DNA of 22,601 nt from positions 1 to 22,601 of IMG/VR virus record IMGVR_UViG_3300037961_003996; one strand, written 5' to 3'. Origin of the DNA: a virus. The notes beneath the pieces were generated by a model, which saw only the letters and a list, made by a program, of their open reading frames with translations, had not been told where the DNA came from and did no database searches. The translations under genes were made by a program, and so were the position numbers. Positions within the stretch are counted from its first letter, which is position 1; each line of letters starts with the position of its first letter. Shown piece after piece: positions 3,480 through 19,479 of this stretch.

Positions 3480-5249
3480 ATGACGCAGACCTTACGGATA
3501 TATGAACCACGGATAGATGAAAAGACATCTAAAATGGATGTGGGTGGGATGAGTATTGATGCAACAAACACAGTGACAGGTTTGTTGTATGGGTTGGCTA
3601 ACCACAAAAGTAATAAGGCAAGAGAGTATTACTTCTGGAGGTTATGTGATGAACTATGGAACCATGAAGAACTCCCTGAACCTCTGATGGTTAAGCATCC
3701 TTGGGCAGAAAGTATGATACAAGCTGTTATACAAAATAAGTATGTGTCTATTGGTGGTGCTGCATCATCTGGTAAGTCACACACTATGGCTGCATGGGGA
3801 ATCCTGAACTGGTTAGCTGCTCCAAGAGATACTCTTGTTCTACTAACATCGACTACGTTACGTGAAGCGAGAAAAAGAATATGGGGTTCTGTCATCAGTT
3901 TACTAACAGTGTTAGAAGGCGCACCATTTAAGATAAGAGATTCTATTGGTAACGTCGCTTATGTAAATGAGAATGGAACTCTGATAGAGAAAGCGGGTTT
4001 GAGTTTGATTGCAGCGGAGCGTAGTAAGACTAGAGAAGCTGTTGGTAAGTTTATCGGTATCAAACAAAAGAATGTTATCTTAATTGCAGACGAGCTTTCA
4101 GAACTATCAACAGCAATACTACAAGCAGGTCTATCTAACTTATCGAAAAACCCATCATTTAGTTTGGTTGGGTTATCAAACCCTGCTTCTCGTTGGGATG
4201 CTTTTGGTGAGTGGAGTGAACCAGCACAAGGCTGGGATTCTATTGATCCTAACATAGATGAAACTTGGAAAACAAAATGGGGTGGTCTTTACAAAAGATA
4301 TGATGGGGAAAGATCCCCTAACATAATTGCTGGTGAAACAGTGTTCCCTTGGTTGCCTACAGAAGAAAAGATAGAGGAAGACAAAGCACTGCTGGGTCAA
4401 GAGAGTAGGGGGTACTACCGAATGGTACGTGCTGTATTCTTTGATTCTGATGAAACCGATGGAGTTTACACAGATGCTGAATTAGTTAAGTCAGGTGCTA
4501 TGGGTAGTATAGAATGGGAGGGAACCCCCACACCTATTGCTGGCTGTGACCCTGCCTTTACTAACGGAGGTGATAGAACAATCCTTTATACTGGCCATGT
4601 TGGTTATGATAAATCTGGTCAGTTTGTTTGCCAGCTAGGTGAAGCGATAGCTCTTACTGACGATGCCACCAACAAAGCCGTCCCCCGATCTTATCAGATT
4701 GTTCAGCAGATAAAGGACGAGTGCAACAAGAGGAAGATACTCCCAGCCAATTTAGGAATCGACTCCACAGGTGCGGGTAGTCCTTTGGCTGATATTCTCG
4801 CTGCTGAGTTTGGTGATGATATTCTTCGTGTTTCATTCGGTGGAAAAGCATCTGACAAGCGAGTCAGTACTAATAGTAAACTGGTAGGTAATGAACTGTA
4901 TGTCAATCGAGTTACTGAACTTTGGTTTGTGGGTAAGGAATTCTGTAGAACTAACCAGTTATTTGGGATTACTAATGAGTTAGCCCAAGAAGTTGTAGGT
5001 CGTAAGTACGATATGGTCAAAGGTTCTACCCTTAGAATGAAGCTAGAATCCAAGCCAGATTATAAGAATCGGTTAGGAAAATCTCCTGACTTAGCTGATG
5101 CTGCCTTTATTTGCATCGATGTCGCAAGGCAACGTCACGGTCTTGTAGCTGTAGAGCCTCTTGATTTAGGAAACAAGACTCAGGGATCAAGGCGCAGAAG
5201 GTCTATAAAACAGCTTACAGGCGTACTAACAAATCAACCTTTAGGTTAG
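3480..5249 (+). CDS. terL: Terminase large subunit (packaging ATPase-nuclease)
   Basis: A 589-aa protein with both terminase domains. ATPase: Walker A GGAASSGKS at 92-100, Walker B VILIADE at 199-205 with catalytic Glu205, and a coupling motif LSNPAS at 232-237. Nuclease (RNase H-like fold): AGCDPAF with Asp357, GIDSTGAG with Asp428, and SPDLADAAF with Asp537 and Asp540. This is the motor that pumps DNA into the procapsid and cuts it at start and finish. Length and motif order are normal, and the gene looks intact. It starts at ATG 3480 without a visible Shine-Dalgarno and opens the rightward block. A small-terminase candidate is divergent next to it. Portal and capsid genes, often nearby, are missing from the window. 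Confidence 0.96.
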   Translation: MTQTLRIYEPRIDEKTSKMDVGGMSIDATNTVTGLLYGLANHKSNKAREYYFWRLCDELWNHEELPEPLMVKHPWAESMIQAVIQNKYVSIGGAASSGKSHTMAAWGILNWLAAPRDTLVLLTSTTLREARKRIWGSVISLLTVLEGAPFKIRDSIGNVAYVNENGTLIEKAGLSLIAAERSKTREAVGKFIGIKQKNVILIADELSELSTAILQAGLSNLSKNPSFSLVGLSNPASRWDAFGEWSEPAQGWDSIDPNIDETWKTKWGGLYKRYDGERSPNIIAGETVFPWLPTEEKIEEDKALLGQESRGYYRMVRAVFFDSDETDGVYTDAELVKSGAMGSIEWEGTPTPIAGCDPAFTNGGDRTILYTGHVGYDKSGQFVCQLGEAIALTDDATNKAVPRSYQIVQQIKDECNKRKILPANLGIDSTGAGSPLADILAAEFGDDILRVSFGGKASDKRVSTNSKLVGNELYVNRVTELWFVGKEFCRTNQLFGITNELAQEVVGRKYDMVKGSTLRMKLESKPDYKNRLGKSPDLADAAFICIDVARQRHGLVAVEPLDLGNKTQGSRRRRSIKQLTGVLTNQPLG

Positions 5250-5295: not shown

Positions 5296-7536
5296 ATGGC
5301 TACTAAGGATTCTTCTACTTTTTATCCAGTGCTGGATATAGGGCAAGGTTTGAAAGTACCAGATTTTTCAAAAATACCTAAAAAAGATTGGAAGAGAGTC
5401 GTAGACGATTTAAACAAAAAACGAGAAGAAAAGTATAAGAACCTACCGACACAAGTTTTAAGTTCTCCTAATGCAAACCTTAGAGCAGGGATAGACTATA
5501 AAGCACCAGAAAAACCAGACAAAAAAGAACTAGCTAAAAAATTTGCTGACTCAAAACGAAAAGAAACCATGATGATGGTAGAGGCTGCGTCCCTTCCATT
5601 TACTTTTTCAGGGTTGCCATTAAAAGCTGCTGGGAAGCAAGTAATAAAACAAAAAGATAATATGATAAATCTAATTAGAAATCTAACAAAAGCGAAAAGC
5701 GGAGCCTCAAAGGTTCCTAAGACAGCACCTAAGACAATGGCTCCAGCACCTCAAATAGTTAAGGGAGGTGGAAAACCACAAGAAACACTTACTGAACTTG
5801 AAAAAATAGCCAAACAAAAAGGAGTTACTAAACAAGAAGCTGCTACAGGAACGTCTAAAAAAATAAAAGAGTTAAGGGAGAAAAAAGTAGCTCTAAATAA
5901 GAAGTTAGCAGAAGATAAAAAGAAACAAGCTAGAGAAGCAGCCGATAAAGCAAAAAGTTTAGGTGAACCTAAACCACAACCCCCTACTAAAAAAGCCACC
6001 AATGAGCAAATCAATAAAGGTAGGATGGCTGCGTATGAAAAAGAGTTGAAAGAAGTACGAGCAGTTAGGAAAAAAATTGTAGAGCAAAATAAGTATAACG
6101 CAAAAGTTTTAGATGAAGCTCAAAAAAATTATAAAACTAAAATACTACCTAACTACAAAAATAAAGTACTGCCTCAGTATAAAAAAGATTTAGCAGCTTA
6201 CAACAAACGTAAGGCTGACATGGAAGCTTATAAGAAAGCAGTCAAAGAAAATGAATCTAAAGGTATATTTACTAATGAGCTTAAAAGGCCAGCACCAGTT
6301 GGTAAACCACCAAAAGAGCCTAAGCCTCCTACCCCTCCAGCTTTAGGTAGTCAACAACTACCAGACTTACCTAGAAAGCCTGATCTGTTACCACCAACAC
6401 CAAAAGCAAAACCAAAAGAGGTGAAAACACAAGAGGTGAAAACACAAGAGGGTAGACCACAAACCCCTATGAATGAAGGGAAGCAACCTACCAAAGTGGA
6501 TACTACTAAAGGGGGTACTACTAAAGCGGATACTAAAACAGATACAACTAAAGCGAGTACTACTAAAGCGGAGACTACTAAAACAGACACAACTAAAACA
6601 GACACAACTAAAACGGAGCCATCTAAAACTACCGCACAAACAGATGAGGTAGCTGCAACAACTAAAGAGGGTACTGGTGGTCTAACACAAGAACAGATGA
6701 ATAGATTCTTCCCACCTGCTCCTCTTAGAGAGGCAACCGAAGAAGTTGCTGAAGGGGTAGGAAAGAGATCATTTAACCCAGCTACAAACGAAGGGTTTGG
6801 TAATATAGCTAAAGAGGTAGGGGAAGTATCTGCTAAAGTAGGGGGTAAAGTAAAAGAGGGAACCAAGGCAGCTTCCGATGTTGCATTTAAAAAAGTGTTA
6901 CCTACAACAGTAGTCTTAGGTGGTGGAGGACTTGGAGCTACTGGTTATATGTTAGGGCGTGGTGGTGATGATGAAACACCCAAACCAAAAGAGGGTGAAC
7001 CACCTAAACCAAAAGATATTGCATCTAATAAACAAAAAGATAAAAAACCTTCTGACACTGTTGTCATAGGAACAACTGATGCTAAACAAACGATTGATAC
7101 AGACATACCTTTAAAAGACACTGAGCTTTCTAAAAAGAAAAAGTCTATGCCTATGAGTGACTTTTTAAAGCTCGCTAGGAAAACTGCAAATAAGGCTGCT
7201 AAAGTAGCTGCTTCTGAATCTAAAGATAAACTAGATCCTACTAGATTTAATAATCTTGATGAAGTACCTACTGACGATCCTAATGAAGGTAAGGCTGTTG
7301 CTGGTGGTGTAGGTACAGGTGCAGGTACAGGTACGGGTACAGATGCTATGAGTTTCCGACAAGCTATGGACATAGCTAGTGAAACAAAAGAAAGAGAAAT
7401 GCTTCAAAACTTAGGAGGCACTACTCCTACAGGGTTGGATTATCTTAGATCTGCTCCAGAAGTAGAAGCCCAAAATGTTGTTCGTAGAGAACTTATGGAG
7501 AGAGAAAGAAAAAGAAGAAAGCAAAGAGTAGCTTAA
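5296..7536 (+). CDS. Lys/Pro/Thr-rich low-complexity protein, probable virion protein (746 aa)
   Basis: I do not recognise a named family. The protein is strongly basic and disordered-looking. Residues about 180-330 are Lys/Ala/Glu-rich helical (coiled-coil-like), about 335-400 are Pro/Lys-rich, 402-445 form a pentapeptide array of the type xTTKx, and 534-557 form one Gly-rich hydrophobic stretch (VLPTTVVLGGGGLG). A GTG-type dipeptide run lies near 671-682. The C terminus is Arg/Lys-rich (ERERKRRKQRVA). Its place between the large terminase and two other long genes suggests a structural or ejected protein. The basic, disordered composition would suit DNA contact inside the capsid, but that is inference. 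AGGA lies too close to the ATG at 5296 to be a good ribosome site. The next gene begins one base after its stop. Confidence 0.85.
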   Translation: MATKDSSTFYPVLDIGQGLKVPDFSKIPKKDWKRVVDDLNKKREEKYKNLPTQVLSSPNANLRAGIDYKAPEKPDKKELAKKFADSKRKETMMMVEAASLPFTFSGLPLKAAGKQVIKQKDNMINLIRNLTKAKSGASKVPKTAPKTMAPAPQIVKGGGKPQETLTELEKIAKQKGVTKQEAATGTSKKIKELREKKVALNKKLAEDKKKQAREAADKAKSLGEPKPQPPTKKATNEQINKGRMAAYEKELKEVRAVRKKIVEQNKYNAKVLDEAQKNYKTKILPNYKNKVLPQYKKDLAAYNKRKADMEAYKKAVKENESKGIFTNELKRPAPVGKPPKEPKPPTPPALGSQQLPDLPRKPDLLPPTPKAKPKEVKTQEVKTQEGRPQTPMNEGKQPTKVDTTKGGTTKADTKTDTTKASTTKAETTKTDTTKTDTTKTEPSKTTAQTDEVAATTKEGTGGLTQEQMNRFFPPAPLREATEEVAEGVGKRSFNPATNEGFGNIAKEVGEVSAKVGGKVKEGTKAASDVAFKKVLPTTVVLGGGGLGATGYMLGRGGDDETPKPKEGEPPKPKDIASNKQKDKKPSDTVVIGTTDAKQTIDTDIPLKDTELSKKKKSMPMSDFLKLARKTANKAAKVAASESKDKLDPTRFNNLDEVPTDDPNEGKAVAGGVGTGAGTGTGTDAMSFRQAMDIASETKEREMLQNLGGTTPTGLDYLRSAPEVEAQNVVRRELMERERKRRKQRVA
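6418..6630 (+). repeat. Coding tandem repeats: EVKTQ pair and xTTKx pentapeptide array
   Basis: Within the 746-aa gene, a 15-bp unit encoding EVKTQ occurs twice in tandem (6418-6447). About nine units of 12-15 bp follow (6499-6630), encoding DTTKG, GTTKA, DTKT, DTTKA, STTKA, ETTKT, DTTKT, DTTKT and EPSKT. Neighbouring units are near-identical at DNA level, so unit number could change by slippage without shifting the frame. Confidence 0.9.
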
Positions 7537-7537
7537 A

Positions 7538-8908
7538 ATGGGAACTAAAGATTTTACATCACGATCTCGTCAGTCAATTAGGCGTGTCGGCCCTGATTCT
7601 AGTAGAACTAGAAAGGTTCTAGAAGAGGTAGCACCCTTTAGCCAAAAGGCTGCTGATATATTAGCTGTTCAATTTGCTAATGAAAAACTTTCTGAGTCAG
7701 GTGTTGATAGCCCTTTACAACAAAAGGCAAGGGATAACTTTAAACAAGCGTTAGCTGTAGGCGAGCAAGTAGCAATGCAGGGAGACTTTGATCCTGTTAA
7801 TGCGATTGCCCCTGTAAAAATGCAGAACTTTGGAGCTAACCTTCCTTTCGACCAAAGGATAGATTTGATTAATCGTTTTGCACCTCAAGCAAGGCAGCAA
7901 AGAGTAAACAACTTAAAAGAGCATAAACTGTTTTTTGATTTAAAAGAGGCACAAAGAAAAGCCAAAGTATTTCAAGAAGCAGATGCTGTTAAGATTCAAG
8001 TACAACAAAGGCTTGCTAATATAGATCCATTAGCAAAACCTCAAGAGCAGCTTGATAGCATGGTGGATATTATTACAAAGTCACCTGAAGCGTTGGGAGA
8101 TCCTAGATTAGCACAGTCGATAAAGTTTAAGTGGGACGATACTTTCAATAGAGTTAACAAAGCTGAAAGTAGAAAGTATGCTAGAAAACAAACAGAGTTA
8201 AATTTAGCACTCGCAGCAGCCAAGGCAGGAGATAAAAATCTTGTGCTTTCTATATTTAAAAAAGGTAAGAAAGGTCAGGAAGGACTAAGTAAATTAGGGC
8301 AGACTGCTGTAGGATTGGCAGAAGCTACTCAGTCTAAGCAACAAAGTGAAGTTTTAGGTAAGACTAATGAATCTATTTTAAATGAATTAGAACAGTCAGG
8401 AACTACTTATGATCAGCTACTTACAATAGAGCCAATGATATCTGGTACTTTAGATGGCAGTCAAAAGTTTCGTTTTGATATTATCAAAAAATTAAAAGAG
8501 AAAAAAGCTAACGGAGAAATTGTAGATGATAAAATAAATGAACTCCAAGTCCGTAGTACTTCATTAGCTAGTATACCTAAAGAGGCAGTAAATGAAACTA
8601 TAATTAAATCTTTCTTAGATGTTTTATTTGATGCTTTCCAAACATCGCAGGTCGGAGGAGCAAAAAATATAGTAAGTTTATTCCCCAACGATTTTAAGTT
8701 TATGGGAATTACTAATAAAGATGTAGCACTCACTGAAGAAGATTTAAGAAAAAAGATAACTAATAGTATAAGCGTGAGTGATCCAGAACAGGCTGTCGCT
8801 AATTATAAAACTTTTGCGAATGTTATCCAACAACTTTTACTTAATAAACAAGACGACGAAACTCTTGAACAAAAAGTTAATAGGTTCAAAGGTAAACTTC
8901 CTGAATAA
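7538..8908 (+). CDS. Helical protein of unknown function, probable virion protein (456 aa)
   Basis: Not recognised. The 456 residues look almost wholly alpha-helical, rich in Gln, Lys, Ala and Leu, with no signal peptide, membrane helix or Cys cluster. Helical stretches such as RQQRVNNLKEHKLFFDLKEA suggest coiled-coil or bundle structure. It begins MGTKDFTSRS, and the gene before it begins MATKDSS; this may be a shared N-terminal signal or chance. The ATG at 7538 follows the previous stop by one base, so the two are surely co-translated. Sitting just before the giant gene, it may be an internal core protein like the T7 ejection proteins gp14/gp15 in position, but I see no sequence match to them. 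Confidence 0.85.
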   Translation: MGTKDFTSRSRQSIRRVGPDSSRTRKVLEEVAPFSQKAADILAVQFANEKLSESGVDSPLQQKARDNFKQALAVGEQVAMQGDFDPVNAIAPVKMQNFGANLPFDQRIDLINRFAPQARQQRVNNLKEHKLFFDLKEAQRKAKVFQEADAVKIQVQQRLANIDPLAKPQEQLDSMVDIITKSPEALGDPRLAQSIKFKWDDTFNRVNKAESRKYARKQTELNLALAAAKAGDKNLVLSIFKKGKKGQEGLSKLGQTAVGLAEATQSKQQSEVLGKTNESILNELEQSGTTYDQLLTIEPMISGTLDGSQKFRFDIIKKLKEKKANGEIVDDKINELQVRSTSLASIPKEAVNETIIKSFLDVLFDAFQTSQVGGAKNIVSLFPNDFKFMGITNKDVALTEEDLRKKITNSISVSDPEQAVANYKTFANVIQQLLLNKQDDETLEQKVNRFKGKLPE

Positions 8909-14900: not shown

Positions 14901-16194
14901 AAAGAAAGCTAAAGCAAAACAGAATGGAGATAAGTATGAAGCTATGTCAGAGTATGATCTGAAAAGAGCTGCTTCTGATATAGTAAAAGCTACTGCTCAG
15001 TCTTATAGTCAGGCAGTTCCATTAGTGAGGGGTCTTGCTAAATCCCCATATGGTGTAATGTTTGCACCTTTCATACGATTCAAAGGAGAGGTTGTAAGGA
15101 TTGTAGTTAATACACTTAGAATAGGAGTTAAGGAAATAAGAGATTCTAATCCAGTCATTTTCTGGAGAGGTGTTAAAAGGTTAACAGGTCTTTCTAGTGT
15201 TATGATCATTGGGTCAGCAGGAATTTCTACTGTCCTAAGAAAAGTTGCAGGGATGACTGAGGAAGATGAGATGGCACTACGGAGATTAGTTCCAGAATAT
15301 CTTAGGAGCCATACTTTCTGGTTTGCTAGGAATGAGAAAGGAGGGATATCAACTTATGATATGACTTATATAAATCCGTTCTCCCAATTAGCAGACCCTT
15401 TCCTAAGAGCGTACACAAAAGCATTCGCAGGAGAATCTGTTGCTTCTATTACTTCTCAGTTTGTAAAGACCTTAGTTATAGATGAATACTTTGATGAGCA
15501 GATATTCTCAGGAGCTTTCATAAGTGTTATAAAAAACAGAGATCCACAAACAGGTAAGAAGATAGTCGAGGATAGAGAAGATCCTCTAGATGCTTTTGGA
15601 AGACAAGCTCAGTATATACTGGAAGAAGCTTTTGAACCAAGGACTTTAAAAGCTATGCGAGATATATCTGCTATGGTCGGAGCAGATATGACTATGAAAG
15701 ATATCTTCAACAGGATAGGTAAAGAATTCAAACCAGTCTCAGAGTATGAGATTGATTTTTATCAGAGACTTCAAGGATATCTCCATGCTGCTAGACTTGA
15801 AGGACAACAGATATCATTAAGAAAAAATATCGCTTTAAGAGACATCCCTTTGTCTAACTCACAACTAAGGCAGTTAGTTTTAGATGAGATGGATCACAAG
15901 AGAAGAATAGATAAAGAGATAATGCAGACAGTGAATTCGTCTATGGGTATGGGAAATCTTTCCCAAGAACAAATAGACGATGCTGTAAGGAGAGCTAAAT
16001 TTGGTCAGCGTAGGTGGGGTAACTTAAAGAAAGGTTTAACTGAAACTCCTCTTGAAACTATCAAGGGTCTGAAAGATAGACTAAATGAAAAAGCCGAAAG
16101 AACAGGACAAGCTGTGTTCGCACGTAGAGCAAAGTATCTTGATGCTATGTACAGAAGTTTACCGAGGACATACAAGTTTGATACCAAGTATTAA
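8947..16194 (+). CDS. Giant virion/ejection-type polyvalent protein (2415 aa)
   Basis: One uninterrupted 2415-aa frame, starting at GTG 8947. Hydrophobic Gly/Ala-rich stretches occur near 435-450, 484-515, 626-650, 745-767 and 2079-2102, suited to membrane insertion. Residues 1060-1130 resemble a phage zincin-like domain, with SEEIAHA (Glu1108, Glu1109, His1112) where a metalloprotease would have HExxH, so the first metal-binding His is replaced by Glu. Residues about 1350-1500 and 1860-2000 look helical, and FYMRNALGN at 1841-1849 resembles a motif I associate with large polyvalent-protein domains (LPD38-like; from memory). Such proteins, and T7 gp16, travel in the virion and enter the host with the DNA. 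Size, membrane segments and position fit that role; no transglycosylase motif is obvious. Its stop shares TTAA with the convergent gene. Confidence 0.88.
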   Translation: MTEDINELTGRSLSQILSAGGASANDNSLDFDTWDKTSAEHIDNKIDKLRGYGNYLREYELDRGFLDGQTEYTINEVIKDSIRKVDPDYELPAYGGSVDSDAAMLGMAFGEERKQNYYDAISNGASRDDFIDVLNDAKTYLVETDQLKLASLQRTNEDGETYFEIIGNGNAGERDTAIKESLNLGALRYRDLWQTPIGYGEEYEGVNRFQAARYAKIQTELANSSQSRNDEKLYDEVVQEAKDYFDKKPQDRDDPAALVTKARTLLGNNFAKGKEVPSDVARNRFQDAEIIDVLEQVAVYDKYQKGEVKYITDDQRLHENIKVTNNKVAVPHLRLLTNRTEFQLAVEQKIQKGDLTERQKDFLENNRRLYLTNNYEAYDELFKGEALGDKWVAAKIEGAQAGKDNVQILDDFLDNPQVYSSIGNKFRAIADSVGDSFSGLAFVLPALFGNKNAIDFLVEQEERRVNRRQVAQIYGDKFGIGMDVATTLTPALVDIGATALASSATFGAGGVLYLGSKQGAKITAKGYVKSIVGTAFLRQFGETGEQAALRLATKNKVLKLSEEGVVSKGVADAIDSYNNMIANKTIVNRVQNSAIFVTSANRSAGSTYATVYSNLDGDHAEKHDKALGAALMAGAATGLITTGFSAIGKGGFENALLRGLTFNQQKFALERLSRSKLTRLDAENLIRETVGTRIKEITRTGFGDLYQRFVKAGTEEFVEEAIDEFVNSFIVDAALDRNTPMIEKISGSLYAGLIGGIIGQGASAARAIKDRRDSAVVGQLAEFQKQEETKIIEALRKNKSPITAALVEDRVRSLLRGPAGTAISPEDEVAVQEARAELKGVNPDEIYVGDEGVEISSERMEQLIPEVDVAQMASNLENLKSAQETEVIEEALNTESSTIDDEEFINTNAIKISVRQDKNLEATEDKVFTFANEEELNKEIKNLEEQLIPYRDWARTQEAKDKLKSEGENPDTVSFFDTKFNLEQKLKSLQEFQDKANQQILKSQIEEIPESDFDSRGLDKADEALKTNVQGILGDLIKRAESFDVEVRLVDQKARDDAKERGDELKTFQLVTSTTGSYILIDPIGIAAFAEGRSTFSTKSLTRALMSEEIAHAAVFNELSRNEIKDLYNTLPSYVIQKTIDTYYTNEADRASANERLNSTDANVVAKEVNTITQELLRMETQKALRGFTSEEDYAFYRNNPSILSILLRYFKGMVRRLSNALKRDPNNPSLSMAINRIVKTHTHMRKGGTRDILPSFDPNNPKENIAIFASQINTNKDEPLEPTEGINDFIESQVDPEEETKSKLLMRFGDLTGMLELPMLYSGRYRGKYEKSRKWLNTIVGSEDPRLRKLYENEIQLRNAVFDEIELYRERLEELVQKEYPDGNPPVALFKAITGEEASTRLNSKNVEQIEGFFRKRAEELDILKQNEMKTATTKEAQEDIALKYKALFEILDARKTDTYNNAFEEQRARLNSERIDAIEQMGGFVEDGVTEPKRTPKGELAAHLLSLREKVDAFSKKIKELYPNDPEASQGLGATIDQNLGIYITRSYKLFTEAGYARKVMENEEYALVRENAVKFFTDEYVTNRGRILYTQGNYNKNGEVIKISSLADAEAIARAELTQSAKGEQGMPAIIENIMVDYLASFAPNDSQFDLPIPSNEWKKNSTSVSKIVREKLMQRKDVPSVLRDLLGEEKDATGYNGVMRTYMHVSIMAAHQAFLRNVFQFGRAEENKWILSEDELRNLPPEEKYKNPDAADLASKEPLWEVITASSSKGDARFDPFLSEGTRLYAPRDLITSIRNIADSMSYSLNDADVVVSNVTKAMAQLTGGSMALKTLGSVGFYMRNALGNALFFAPAQGMLPTVKMAKTWFKEIGRKKGFFLKGKLGLQREAVDAYYSELSALGILNDEVRPKMIDELLLGETTPQGMMDKISENIGVLAKKNPSKAQLDDPNSTIGKLYLAVREMSAAMDTYYKIYYFEHELDVLKKAKAKQNGDKYEAMSEYDLKRAASDIVKATAQSYSQAVPLVRGLAKSPYGVMFAPFIRFKGEVVRIVVNTLRIGVKEIRDSNPVIFWRGVKRLTGLSSVMIIGSAGISTVLRKVAGMTEEDEMALRRLVPEYLRSHTFWFARNEKGGISTYDMTYINPFSQLADPFLRAYTKAFAGESVASITSQFVKTLVIDEYFDEQIFSGAFISVIKNRDPQTGKKIVEDREDPLDAFGRQAQYILEEAFEPRTLKAMRDISAMVGADMTMKDIFNRIGKEFKPVSEYEIDFYQRLQGYLHAARLEGQQISLRKNIALRDIPLSNSQLRQLVLDEMDHKRRIDKEIMQTVNSSMGMGNLSQEQIDDAVRRAKFGQRRWGNLKKGLTETPLETIKGLKDRLNEKAERTGQAVFARRAKYLDAMYRSLPRTYKFDTKY

Positions 16195-16418
16195 ACCATC
16201 GCAAAACTTCTGAAAGGTATCGTTGCTGATACAGACCCATGCTTATGGGCGAGGTACTTAAAAGTATCTATGCTCTTTTGTTTGTCTTTATTTCTATACA
16301 GAAGGACTCTTGAATCTTTGATGCTTGCAACAATCTCGTATGAGTTTTGTTTTTCCAACATCGCAATCCAATCATATCTACTATCTGCATCCGTTTGTAT
16401 GTAGCGTTTAACACTCAT
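16191..16418 (-). CDS. Small protein of unknown function (75 aa)
   Basis: Unknown soluble protein of 75 residues (MSVKRYIQTD...), basic, with a central helix-strand pattern (YEIVASIKDSRVLLYRNKD). The ATG at 16418 is chosen because it overlaps the stop of the preceding gene by 11 bases, as expected for a coupled operon; a longer frame would run through much of that gene in another frame. This is the last gene of the leftward operon. Its TAA lies on the same four bases as the stop of the giant gene coming the other way. Confidence 0.65.
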   Translation of the reverse strand: MSVKRYIQTDADSRYDWIAMLEKQNSYEIVASIKDSRVLLYRNKDKQKSIDTFKYLAHKHGSVSATIPFRSFAMV

Positions 16419-16614
16419 GGAAATATTGCTTCGGCAGTAGTGCCTTGGCAGATCCCAGAGGCATAAAGATTTCAGCCCCAACTCTGGGGTTGTTACCATC
16501 CTCATCTCGGAAGATAGGATAAACTTTAAATGTCTCTGGCATTACTTTGTGGTTCTTTGTTTGCATGGACATAAGGAGTTCATACTCTTCAAAGTATATT
16601 CTCAAAACATTCAT
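16408..16614 (-). CDS. Small protein of unknown function (68 aa)
   Basis: Unknown 68-residue protein starting MNVLRIYFEEYELL. I use the ATG at 16614; a TTG four codons upstream is possible but has no better ribosome site. The acidic N-terminal helix, the middle (KVYPIFRDEDGNNPRVGAE) and the tail (LLPKQYFHEC) show no known motif. The gene follows the structured intergenic region 16663-16785, so that RNA would lie in its leader and might affect its processing or translation. Confidence 0.6.
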   Translation of the reverse strand: MNVLRIYFEEYELLMSMQTKNHKVMPETFKVYPIFRDEDGNNPRVGAEIFMPLGSAKALLPKQYFHEC

Positions 16615-16662
16615 GGTCTTTAACAATATTTCTAAAATGATTTAAAATCAAGACAGAAAATA

Positions 16663-16785
16663 CCCTGACCCCTGTAGTCTGAACTAGGTGTTCATCAAAG
16701 ACGCATTAAACAACTATGCAAAAAGAACGCCTCATCTAGAGTTCTCCTCTAGCTTTATTCCTAGCTCAGAGTACAGGAGTCAGGG
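16663..16785 (-). ncRNA. Candidate structured RNA: 26-nt terminal inverted repeat with inner hairpins
   Basis: The 166-bp gap 16627-16792 contains a large imperfect inverted repeat: arm 16663-16688 pairs with arm 16760-16785 at 23 of 26 positions by Watson-Crick rules. On the minus strand, two of the three mismatches become G-U pairs, leaving one C-C mismatch, so 25 of 26 positions can pair. This argues that RNA from the minus strand, the strand of both flanking genes, is the functional form. Inside lie CTAGAG/CTCTAG (16736-16741 with 16747-16752, five-base loop), GCAT/ATGC (16703-16706 with 16716-16719), and GTTC/GAAC (16690-16693 with 16725-16728), giving a three-way-junction-like fold. I recognise no known family. 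It could be a free small RNA, an RNase III processing site or a leader element. Confidence 0.6.
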
Positions 16786-16792
16786 TTCATGG

Positions 16793-17014
16793 TTAATTTA
16801 TATCAAACTCACTCTTCTCGTAGTACATCCCACACGCACTACACTTAATAGACTCCCACTCTAAATGATATACTTCGTTGACATGACCACAGGGACATTT
16901 GGTTTTATACACACGCCCTTCGTAAGTCTTGCTGATCTCAGCAGAGACAGCGAAGAATCTTAACACAAGGTAGATCAACGCAAACCAGATAACTATTCCT
17001 GTTAGTAGCATCAT
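16793..17014 (-). CDS. Membrane-anchored zinc-ribbon protein (73 aa)
   Basis: A 73-aa protein with one N-terminal membrane helix (residues 2-24, LLTGIVIWFALIYLVLRFF) followed by a soluble zinc-ribbon-like segment: KCPCGHVNEV and KCSACGMYY give two Cys pairs (C-x-C and C-x-x-C), the usual knuckle layout for one zinc ion. No enzyme function can be assigned. The ATG at 17014 overlaps the previous stop as ATGA, so coupling is likely. It may sit in the host inner membrane and present the metal-binding head to the cytoplasm or periplasm; topology is not settled by the sequence. Confidence 0.7.
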   Translation of the reverse strand: MMLLTGIVIWFALIYLVLRFFAVSAEISKTYEGRVYKTKCPCGHVNEVYHLEWESIKCSACGMYYEKSEFDIN

Positions 17015-18172: not shown

Positions 18173-18357
18173 TATGATACCTCCTTAATATAATCTTCCC
18201 ATTGGGATGCTTCTTCTACTTTATAAATCAAATCATCTATAACATCTCCGATAGTAAAACCAGATCCGTTATTATCCTTTGGTTCATCCATCAATTTGCG
18301 TAGCTCTAAGAACTCCTTGATGTCATTTAAATCACATAGGGTTTCTGATACGTTCAT
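18172..18357 (-). CDS. Small acidic protein of unknown function (61 aa)
   Basis: Unknown 61-residue acidic protein, mostly helical by composition (DLNDIKEFLELRKLMDE and VIDDLIYKVEEASQWEDY). It ends KEVS because its last codons are the ribosome site of the next gene. The ATG at 18357 follows GGAGGTATCAAA and overlaps the previous stop as ATGA. Such short acidic phage proteins often bind host enzymes, but nothing here proves it. Confidence 0.68.
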   Translation of the reverse strand: MNVSETLCDLNDIKEFLELRKLMDEPKDNNGSGFTIGDVIDDLIYKVEEASQWEDYIKEVS

Positions 18358-18749
18358 TTTGATACCTCCATTTCATCTACGATTACTTCACAGGCATCTT
18401 GTATTTCTTCCACAATAGATCCTATATCAACCTTACCTCTGTTGAATCGACCGACACACTCTAGCCATTGGGCATCTGTTAATTCATTGTCAGGATCTAT
18501 ATCTTCTTTACGTAAGACAATTCCTATCTCGTTCTTAGGTTCGTAGGTGTAATCATAATGATCGTCCCTCCATTCTAGCTTGTCTGGTTCGGGGAGATCA
18601 ATGATAGATGAATCATCATGCGGATGATCATATATCATAATCCTGCCGTAGGCATCTTTCTTATATTCCCCATATGGGTTTGTTAAAGCATAGGATAAAT
18701 CCCATACACGAGAATAACAAAAGTTCTCTCTGCTCATGTGTTTTTTCAT
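18354..18749 (-). CDS. Acidic protein of unknown function (131 aa)
   Basis: Unknown 131-residue protein, strongly acidic and rich in Tyr and Asp (IMIYDHPHDDSSIIDLPEPD; DDHYDYTYEPKNE). No motif recognised; no membrane helix. It ends EMEVSK, again because the following gene's ribosome site is encoded in its tail. Start ATG 18749 sits seven bases after a perfect AAGGAGGT inside the previous gene and overlaps that gene's stop as ATGA. A later Met (residue 5) is possible but lacks such a site. Confidence 0.68.
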   Translation of the reverse strand: MKKHMSRENFCYSRVWDLSYALTNPYGEYKKDAYGRIMIYDHPHDDSSIIDLPEPDKLEWRDDHYDYTYEPKNEIGIVLRKEDIDPDNELTDAQWLECVGRFNRGKVDIGSIVEEIQDACEVIVDEMEVSK

Positions 18750-18940
18750 TTTGATACCTCCTTACTTGCAAAATGTTTACCTTCCTCAACTTCTTTCTGA
18801 CAGCTATCAGGCATATCTTCTTCACAATATCCGCAGATATTGCATTCAAGTGATTCAGATTTTTTGTGGATATATTTGTCAGGACATTCACAGTCCCAAT
18901 ACAAATCATTTGTGAACGGATAGTATATAGGTTTTTTCAT
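18746..18940 (-). CDS. Small Cys-rich, probable zinc-binding protein (64 aa)
   Basis: A 64-residue protein with seven Cys: CECPD near 17-21, ECNICGYC near 32-39 and DSC near 45-47. The C-x-C ... C-x-x-C-x-x-C spacing suits one zinc ion in a ribbon or rubredoxin-like fold, though the exact ligands cannot be fixed from sequence. The cassette AAGGAGGTATCAAAATGA introduces it, and its own tail (ASKEVSK) carries the next copy. No partner is evident; small phage zinc proteins often act as inhibitors or adaptors (inference). Confidence 0.7.
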   Translation of the reverse strand: MKKPIYYPFTNDLYWDCECPDKYIHKKSESLECNICGYCEEDMPDSCQKEVEEGKHFASKEVSK

Positions 18941-19146
18941 TTTGATACCTCCTTATCTGCTTTAGTTCTGAACCACCAGTTGTCTATACTGAAGTCATCA
19001 TCAGAACTCCTATCGTTTAGAAAATCAAGGAACTGTTCAATAGCCTCTGATTTATTTCCACTAGCAATGGTTTCCCATTTATGATCCTGACTAGGACTGC
19101 TACAATATCTATCTGTTTGGGATACTCTCCCCATTTGAATTTGCAT
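18937..19146 (-). CDS. Small protein of unknown function (69 aa), first gene of operon
   Basis: Unknown 69-residue protein with an acidic middle (NDRSSDDDFSIDNWWFR) and a KEVSK tail. It is the first gene after the strong leftward promoter at 19248-19276, with an expected leader of about 95 bases holding two hairpins. Start ATG 19146 has no Shine-Dalgarno; a second Met four codons in (19134) has none either. This contrasts with the perfect sites of the genes that follow and suggests that the leader structure or an unusual initiation mode sets its expression. Confidence 0.62.
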   Translation of the reverse strand: MQIQMGRVSQTDRYCSSPSQDHKWETIASGNKSEAIEQFLDFLNDRSSDDDFSIDNWWFRTKADKEVSK

Positions 19147-19174
19147 ATAGTTTATTTTATTTAGAGTTAATGCC

Positions 19175-19211
19175 CCCTCAGATAGAAGCCGTATAAGAAA
19201 CTATCTGAGGG
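19175..19211 (-). promoter_or_regulatory. Leader hairpin (11-bp stem)
   Basis: CCCTCAGATAG (19175-19185) and CTATCTGAGGG (19201-19211) are perfect inverted copies with a 15-base loop. On the leftward transcript this stem lies between the promoter and the first gene. No T-run follows it in that direction, so it is not a standard terminator. A second stem, CATTACT/AGTAACG (22-28 and 34-40 of 19200s, i.e. 19222-19228 with 19234-19240), sits at the expected 5' end of the RNA; its one mismatch is a G-U pair on the minus strand. They may protect the message or be RNase III sites. Confidence 0.6.
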
Positions 19212-19247
19212 AGCTGTGTTTCATTACTGTTTGAGTAACGGAAATTC

Positions 19248-19276
19248 ATTATAGCATCGAGTGAATATTGAGTCAA
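19248..19276 (-). promoter_or_regulatory. Strong sigma70-type promoter, leftward
   Basis: On the minus strand, TTGACT (19271-19276) is followed after exactly 17 bases by a perfect TATAAT (19248-19253). The -35 differs from TTGACA at one base. Transcription would start near 19241 and run into the operon 19146-16191. It sits in the only long non-coding gap, just after the terminator of the operon upstream, which strengthens the call. It implies transcription by the host primary RNA polymerase. Confidence 0.85.
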
Positions 19277-19375
19277 GATATTTTCTTCAATTATTTTCTC
19301 TCAGTACATACCTTTTTTTCATGACTTATGCCCGCTAAAAACTATCTCTCTATTCATGAGTCAGGGTGCAGGGTG

Positions 19376-19417
19376 AAAATCGCTCTGAAGTCTGACAAAA
19401 ATCTCTCTGATGTCTGA
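19376..19417. repeat. Tandem direct repeat, 20-bp unit at 22-bp period
   Basis: AAAATCGCTCTGAAGTCTGA (19376-19395) and AAAATCTCTCTGATGTCTGA (19398-19417) match at 18 of 20 positions. The 22-bp period is about two helical turns, which would place both copies on the same face of the DNA. They lie 100-140 bp upstream of the leftward promoter, so binding sites for an activator or repressor are plausible. Confidence 0.8.
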
Positions 19418-19440
19418 TTTTTAGGGTTCGCTCTTCTGTG

Positions 19441-19475
19441 AAAAAAAAAGTACCAGTCTGTTACAACTGGTACTT
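19441..19475 (-). terminator. Rho-independent terminator, leftward
   Basis: On the minus strand, AAGTACCAGT and ACTGGTACTT form a perfect 10-bp stem with an 8-base loop (19448-19475), followed at once by a run of T (nine A on the plus strand, 19441-19449). It starts five bases after the stop of the GP88-like gene and would end the operon coming from the right edge. Confidence 0.92.
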
Positions 19476-19479
19476 AGTG

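Follow-up and report, generated by a model that had tools for sequence, protein, structure and literature searches.

A predicted three-way-junction RNA on the minus strand of a phage genome belongs to a family reached by no Rfam 15 model

The locus and the fold of the element

The DNA analysed here (the window) is a whole virus record of 22,601 bases carrying phage genes for a terminase large subunit, a phrog_62 helicase, a Holliday-junction resolvase, GP88 and DUF932. A structured RNA lies, with near certainty, at 16662-16786 on the minus strand (RNA 5' end at 16786), in a gap that is the second longest of the window after 19147-19479 (judged by eye from the ORF lists), as the initial annotation had described it. 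Read from its 5' end, the folded RNA consists of the 5' strand of the closing stem P1 (16760-16786, placed by arm pairing and P1 covariation), the linker J12 (AAUAAAG, 16753-16759; AAUARAR in the family), P2, a 6-bp hairpin with a GAGAA loop (16736-16752; GAGAR in the family), the two-base linker J23 (AU, 16734-16735), in which the U and the fifth J12 base covary, forming an A-U pair in the window, P3, a hairpin of varying length and loop (16698-16733), the linker J31 (UGAUGAACA, 16689-16697; ending in UKAACA in the family) and P1', the 3' strand of the closing stem (16662-16688), which pairs with P1. P2 and P3 were placed by fold and covariation, and one C-G to U-A double change was seen in P3 in three of nine close relatives.

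All the neighbouring features considered here are encoded by the same strand. A spacer (16615-16661), conserved in the alignment of near relatives, separates the RNA from gene A (16408-16614, 68 aa, no clear Shine-Dalgarno), which is followed by gene B (16191-16418, 75 aa, with four strands and a helix in its predicted structure). Neither gene had a match in Pfam or PHROGs, the model of gene B had no PDB match at E ≤ 0.001, and the structure prediction for gene A was poor (pLDDT 58). Upstream of the RNA lies an ORF of 73 aa with paired cysteines (16793-17014). No terminator-like site was found on the minus strand between 16400 and 17100 in a scan limited to loops of 3-8 nt. Three small minus-strand genes of the window are preceded by the translation start context GGAGGTATCAAAATGAA, repeated at 18353-18374, 18745-18766 and 18936-18957, from which gene A differs.

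The pairing described in the initial annotation was reproduced. On the plus strand, 23 of the 26 positions of arms 16663-16688 and 16760-16785 are paired (failing pairs C/A, G/G and A/C); on the minus strand the same arms form 23 Watson-Crick and 2 G-U pairs, with C/C as the sole failure, and an extra A-U pair lengthens the stem to 16662/16786. The inner hairpins and the three-way junction proposed there were also recovered in the minus-strand fold (hairpins 16736-16752 and 16698-16733). Over 143 nt, the free energy was -62.7 kcal/mol for the minus strand (z -6.43) and -49.4 kcal/mol for the plus strand (z -6.04), and none of 200 dinucleotide shuffles equalled either value; both strands fold far below their shuffles, so the strand is not decided by energy alone. 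The longest gap, 19147-19479, was structured too (z -3.0 minus, -3.8 plus), with strong hairpins near 19173-19213 and 19449-19476, and has the 10-mer ACCCTGACTC in common with the 5' arm of the RNA.

Homologues and covariation

Close relatives were collected with a 5'-arm pattern (six viral contigs), a two-arm pattern (L009) and an alignment of gene A (L017), and in each of the eight the full element precedes genes A and B. Three of 11 stretches found with a 17-mer pattern (L025, L027, L028) were discarded as chance. In L002-L005, the block from the stop codon of a large gene to about the RNA 5' edge shares 92.6-94.2% identity with the window (blastn), and the adjoining end of the large protein merely 37-47%; in L003 and L004, DNA similarity to the window ends at the RNA 5' edge, and the sequence upstream of the RNA is unlike that of the window. 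Judged from these alignments, the RNA and genes A and B appear to move together as a module. Seven relatives differ from the window at 3-15 of 138 positions of the RNA and at 8-17 of the 68 third-codon positions of gene A; since the RNA changes are not clearly fewer, identity within the group is no proof of selection, and the case for selection on the RNA rests on the covariation described below. Two coding interpretations were rejected: a short peptide (MNPDSCTL..) in the 5' arm, where the differences between close relatives were all nonsynonymous (by eye), and an ATG past the P2 loop, which a 1-nt indel between close relatives puts out of frame. An insertion of about 80-90 nt with a hairpin (GUCAGGU...ACCUGAC) precedes the RNA in L005, L006 and L017.

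A covariance model (R1) built from nine sequences, the window among them, scored 154-175 bits on the RNA strand of its training sequences (167.7 bits for the window, 16656-16793) vs. 37-45 on the opposite strand, and was searched over 33 sources. It matched L031/L055 (111.5 bits, E 5e-25), where part of the outer stem is swapped for other complementary bases and the C-C mismatch is replaced by U-A (by eye). Gene A accompanies the RNA both in the window group and in L031 (54% identity to the L031 version), with a spacing of 43-44 nt between RNA and gene in the window, L009, L017 and L031. Weaker matches lay just past the large gene in L045 (33 bits), L058 (23 bits) and L043 (18 bits, E 0.16), with the same junction and different helices, and a hairpin scan added L041. 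Thirty-two loci were reached through the large protein: the RNA was present in 14 and absent in 16, the contig of L057 ends inside gene A, and L059 remained doubtful (R2 match of 29 bits at the locus, none in its whole record). R2, the second model described below, gave no support to the weak R1 matches in L053 and L051.

The viral collection was then scanned with a pattern fixing junction and loop bases and leaving pairing free, a stretch being counted as folding if no more than one of the six P2 pairs was missing and P1 had six or more pairs in a row. Among the matches listed there were 75 stretches; 61 fold, 13 of them on contigs already known and 48 new, and the other 14 were discarded. 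A near-identical pattern (differing by one position in loop and gap), run over bacterial and archaeal genomes totalling 257 billion bases, found 24 stretches, none of which folds (Fisher p 1.6e-13), a value that overstates independence because some viral contigs hold identical elements. The second covariance model (R2), run over 91 sources, gave 58 matches at E 2.6e-6 or better, mostly its own training rows or their duplicates, the only additions being L043 and a further copy in L108. Scores of 17.8 bits were reached by four pattern loci that do not fold, and the top score among the 24 control loci was 20 bits. The window, itself in the R2 training set (16675-16772, 80.6 bits, E 2.8e-16), meets the family features (three-way junction, AAUARAR, 6-bp P2 with a GAGAR loop, J31 ending in UKAACA), and independent support for its membership comes from the R1 chain to L031, L045, L058 and L043 together with the pattern scan.

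The final alignment comprised 39 distinct rows, with the window group represented by the window, L009 and L017. Removed beforehand were the 14 stretches that do not fold, contigs present in duplicate, 16 loci whose cores were identical, and any row in which fewer than five of the six P2 pairs form. P2 pairing is consequently in part selected; P1 and P3 pairing were unfiltered at this step. In the family fold, P1, whose length varies (6 to about 30 pairs), leads into AAUARAR and a 6-bp P2 capped by a GAGAR loop; a 2-nt link, a P3 of varying size and nine bases ending in UKAACA follow. Conservation of AAUARAR, GAGA and UKAACACY is by construction in rows found with the pattern, and is displayed independently by L031, L041, L045 and L058, which were found by model or position, and only partly by L043. 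The 26-nt stem on which the initial annotation had centred is present in the window and is not diagnostic of the family, as P1 has only 6-10 pairs in 26 of the 39 sequences; junction, P2 and loop are retained even there.

Twenty-two pairs were assessed (10 in P1, 6 in P2 and 6 in P3), and 89.1% of 837 cells were paired (90.0, 95.3 and 80.8% for P1, P2 and P3 respectively). Changes on both sides occurred in 21 of the 22 pairs (297 cells), and in all 19 pairs free of any pattern-fixed base. The covariation score was 0.843 vs. 0.231 in shuffled alignments (none of 500 reached the observed score) and no more than 0.172 with partners slid. Two contacts within the junction also covary: the fifth J12 base with the second J23 base (columns 18-39; G-C in 33 rows and A-U in six, i.e. 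the window, L009, L017, L031, L074 and L102) and the seventh J12 base with the first J23 base (columns 20-38; G/A in 36 rows and A/G in three, L041, L045 and L069). It is inferred from the sequences that P2 would extend via a G-A step to a Watson-Crick pair abutting P3. On the RNA strand, the 22 pairs included 66 G-U vs. 21 A-C cells, ten of the latter at the loop-closing pair of P2; 16 helix-interior pairs, chosen by the author, had 32 vs. 0, and the alignment of close relatives 50 vs. 2. This excess of G-U over A-C identifies the minus strand of the window as the RNA strand, and the strand bias claimed from the window alone is therefore real across homologues. Comparative analysis thus shows the predicted P1/junction/P2-GAGAR/P3 fold, kept by compensatory changes as expected for the unclassified minus-strand RNA of the initial annotation, and a chance or local feature was rejected on the strength of homologues and covariation.

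Known RNA families, copy number and neighbouring genes

The absence of a recognisable family, as first noted from the letters, held: the window had no Rfam 15 match at gathering score, the only match in 13 carrier loci was a tRNA (L123), and five matches in 20 carrier loci searched at E up to 5 all fell short of their gathering scores. MIR9486 reached 20 and 26 bits over the element vs. a gathering score of 100, which reflects the long hairpin, and was rejected. The phage-encoded packaging RNA of phi29 is also about 120 nt long, with a three-way junction and a long closing helix; the window differs in having no Rfam match, and its phage has a TerL-type terminase. In the available portions of the literature, which included parts of PMC2864571, PMC8040213, PMC3088659 and PMC10879173 and left out most subscription journals, no description matching this fold was noticed. 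According to PMC2864571, manA (RF01745) and wcaG (RF01761) are structured RNA motifs of marine samples and cyanophages, wcaG typically regulating exopolysaccharide or high-light genes. Both resemble the present RNA as structured RNAs known from comparative genomics of marine samples and phages, but both are in Rfam and neither was matched, and no single type of downstream gene goes with the present RNA. The sbcD RNA (RF01757), tabulated for Burkholderiales in PMC2864571, is linked by name only, through SbcD/Mre11-like nuclease genes downstream of the RNA in two lineages, and had no match in L109, L111, L112 and L122.

R2 was searched against 89 whole records, of which 62 matched at E < 1e-6, 61 with a single copy and one (L108) with two; a second match in the L041 record (E 0.09) was not counted. 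The L108 copies (3601-3684 and 4511-4613, minus strand) are divergent and about 0.9 kb apart, and the weaker one and L043 have common changes in J12, the P2 loop (GAGAU) and J31 (AUCA), which may be coupled. No carrier was found in the phage collection by blastn with the window region and three single elements, nor by tblastn/blastn with neighbouring genes and loci, which returned only distant gene relatives and a tRNA. Eight matched phages scanned whole with R2 had no match, which shows little in the absence of a positive control and of first-look candidates.

P1 begins no more than 75 nt past a same-strand upstream ORF in 30 of the 39 sequences (mechanical ORFs). The upstream genes vary between lineages, which supports autonomy of the RNA: an O-like replication protein in L066 (PHROGs) and in L062, L074, L097, L102 and L109 (47-93% identity), a phrog_33218 protein in L064, L065 and L070 (PHROGs) and in L063 and L122 (by identity; 39-57%), a phrog_62 helicase in L069 and a sugar transferase in L089. 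Downstream genes vary as well: an Mre11/SbcD-like nuclease (L064, L065, L066), a protein whose SMC match falls below the Pfam cut-off (L095), an HNH protein (L069), terminase genes (L089, L114) and, at other loci, small unknown genes. In L074 and L102 a convergent gene ends at the RNA, and in L041, L045, L058 and L043 the interval from the RNA to the convergent large gene holds nothing but hairpins and a terminator-like stem.

Other conserved features were observed at these loci. A second hairpin around AGGUAUUCCCC precedes the terminator-like stem (about 7420-7550, minus strand) just past the large gene in nine related contigs (L038, L039, L040, L041, L042, L043, L045, L046 and L058), five of them without the three-way junction RNA. 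UCCUUUC recurs upstream of the RNA in L063, L064, L065, L067, L068, L070, L090, L100, L112 and L122, with varying predicted structures, and is possibly a second domain. A second large closed structure lies directly upstream of the RNA in L058 (about 7700-7940, minus strand). A conserved ORF of 27 codons with paired cysteines and without a Shine-Dalgarno follows the RNA by 8-11 nt in L073, L083, L107, L117 and L119.

Possible roles of the RNA

In our reading, the element is a stand-alone folded RNA that a partner probably binds, and not a leader switch, an RNase III site or a terminator. Our preferred but tentative interpretation, held at somewhat less than even confidence, is that of an autonomous RNA domain in a minus-strand operon, recognised by a partner and acting in trans or as a decoy. 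The RNA would be transcribed along with the operon and would fold stably on its own; the junction and the P2 loop, which we take to be GNRA-like, would offer a recognition surface for a host or phage protein or another partner; and the RNA, still part of the operon transcript or trimmed out of it, would serve as a noncoding RNA acting in trans or as a decoy, without P1 opening and shutting to control the next gene. Everything beyond the fold, transcription and partner recognition included, is inference, as no transcript, partner or phenotype has been seen. A bolder reading, which we regard as less likely than not, is a new class of phage RNA whose junction core either cleaves the RNA itself or captures some host factor, for instance a nuclease, the ribosome or RNA polymerase, acquired repeatedly by uncultivated lineages as a one-copy tool of host takeover.

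Somewhat less probable still, the RNA may be a cis element controlling translation or transcription of the next gene, as an internal ribosome-loading structure or as a leader operated by a ligand or protein. An AUG without a clear Shine-Dalgarno lies 8-11 nt past P1' in L069, L095, L123 and the L073 type, where the RNA looks cis-acting, and 2 nt past it in L079 (Shine-Dalgarno not scored); these starts, together with the fixed distance and continued linkage to gene A in the window group and L031, speak against autonomy. The translation-initiation idea nevertheless ranks only as a rival, since a Shine-Dalgarno score of zero was also found for 21 of 95 background ORFs. Moreover, eight of 23 loci (L058, L064, L068, L074, L089, L100, L102 and L108) lack an ATG-started same-strand ORF of at least 40 aa within 150 nt (L062, whose contig ends after 144 nt, was set apart), the sole nearby ORF in L041 and L045 (61 aa, about 140 nt on) overlaps terminator-like hairpins, and in L063, L064, L065, L070 and L122 the distance to the downstream gene is 46-460 nt vs. 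55-70 nt for the upstream spacing. The constant type of downstream gene that marks leader riboswitches is not met, these genes being varied or absent. Leader control, one of the options raised by the initial annotation, is unlikely as a general role because several lineages show nothing downstream to control and because the P1 of the window group is so long that its opening as a switch is implausible; a ligand-dependent alternative structure is also unlikely there (P1 of at least 26 pairs; no alternative structure was searched for). Leader control remains possible at loci where the RNA is followed, within about 11 nt, by an AUG with no clear Shine-Dalgarno.

A self-cleaving ribozyme of an unrecognised class, with a conserved junction core, variable helices and mixed neighbourhoods, is improbable. 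Hammerheads are also three-way junctions, with a core of CUGANGA and GAAA; the first string (CTGANGA in DNA) occurred in 0 of 42 elements and GAAA, anywhere, in 5. The conserved unpaired core and the covarying junction contacts fit a ribozyme, as does the usually single copy at a phage intergenic site, where hammerhead and HDV-like theta ribozymes, likewise small structured RNAs, are described in PMC3088659 and PMC10879173. However, no Rfam model reached its gathering score, and there are no data on self-cleavage.

No better placed is an RNase III processing site, an mRNA-stabilising stem or a terminator within the operon. The position of P1 close behind the upstream ORF would suit such a role, as would its 26-32 pairs in the window, L009, L017, L031 and L091 (a minority of the 39) and the U-rich tract at or after the P1' end in L064, L067, L080, L091, L095 and L114 (picked by eye and not counted overall). 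The short P1 of most sequences does not, and a simple stem needs neither conserved junction and loop bases nor covarying junction contacts. Members with a long stem may be cleaved by RNase III, but as the shared role, another of the options first suggested, such cleavage is unlikely and unsupported. A palindrome with a role at the DNA level (as a cruciform or as a site of recombination or packaging), or a hairpin due to chance, is scarcely tenable: the similarity of L003 and L004 to the window stops at the RNA 5' edge as at an exchange boundary, but the one-strand G-U excess, the covariation and the far lower R1 scores of the opposite strand all stand against it.

The novelty thus lies in a new RNA family, defined by sequence comparison and reached by no Rfam 15 model; a new mechanism is not shown. 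Structured RNAs with a conserved unpaired core often prove to be riboswitches, ribozymes or protein-binding RNAs. The structure model and the two covarying junction contacts allow exact loss-of-function and rescue mutants to be designed. The presence of the RNA, usually once per genome, in many different uncultivated phages, with neither an Rfam match nor a folded match in the bacterial and archaeal control scan, points to an unexplored RNA function in infection.
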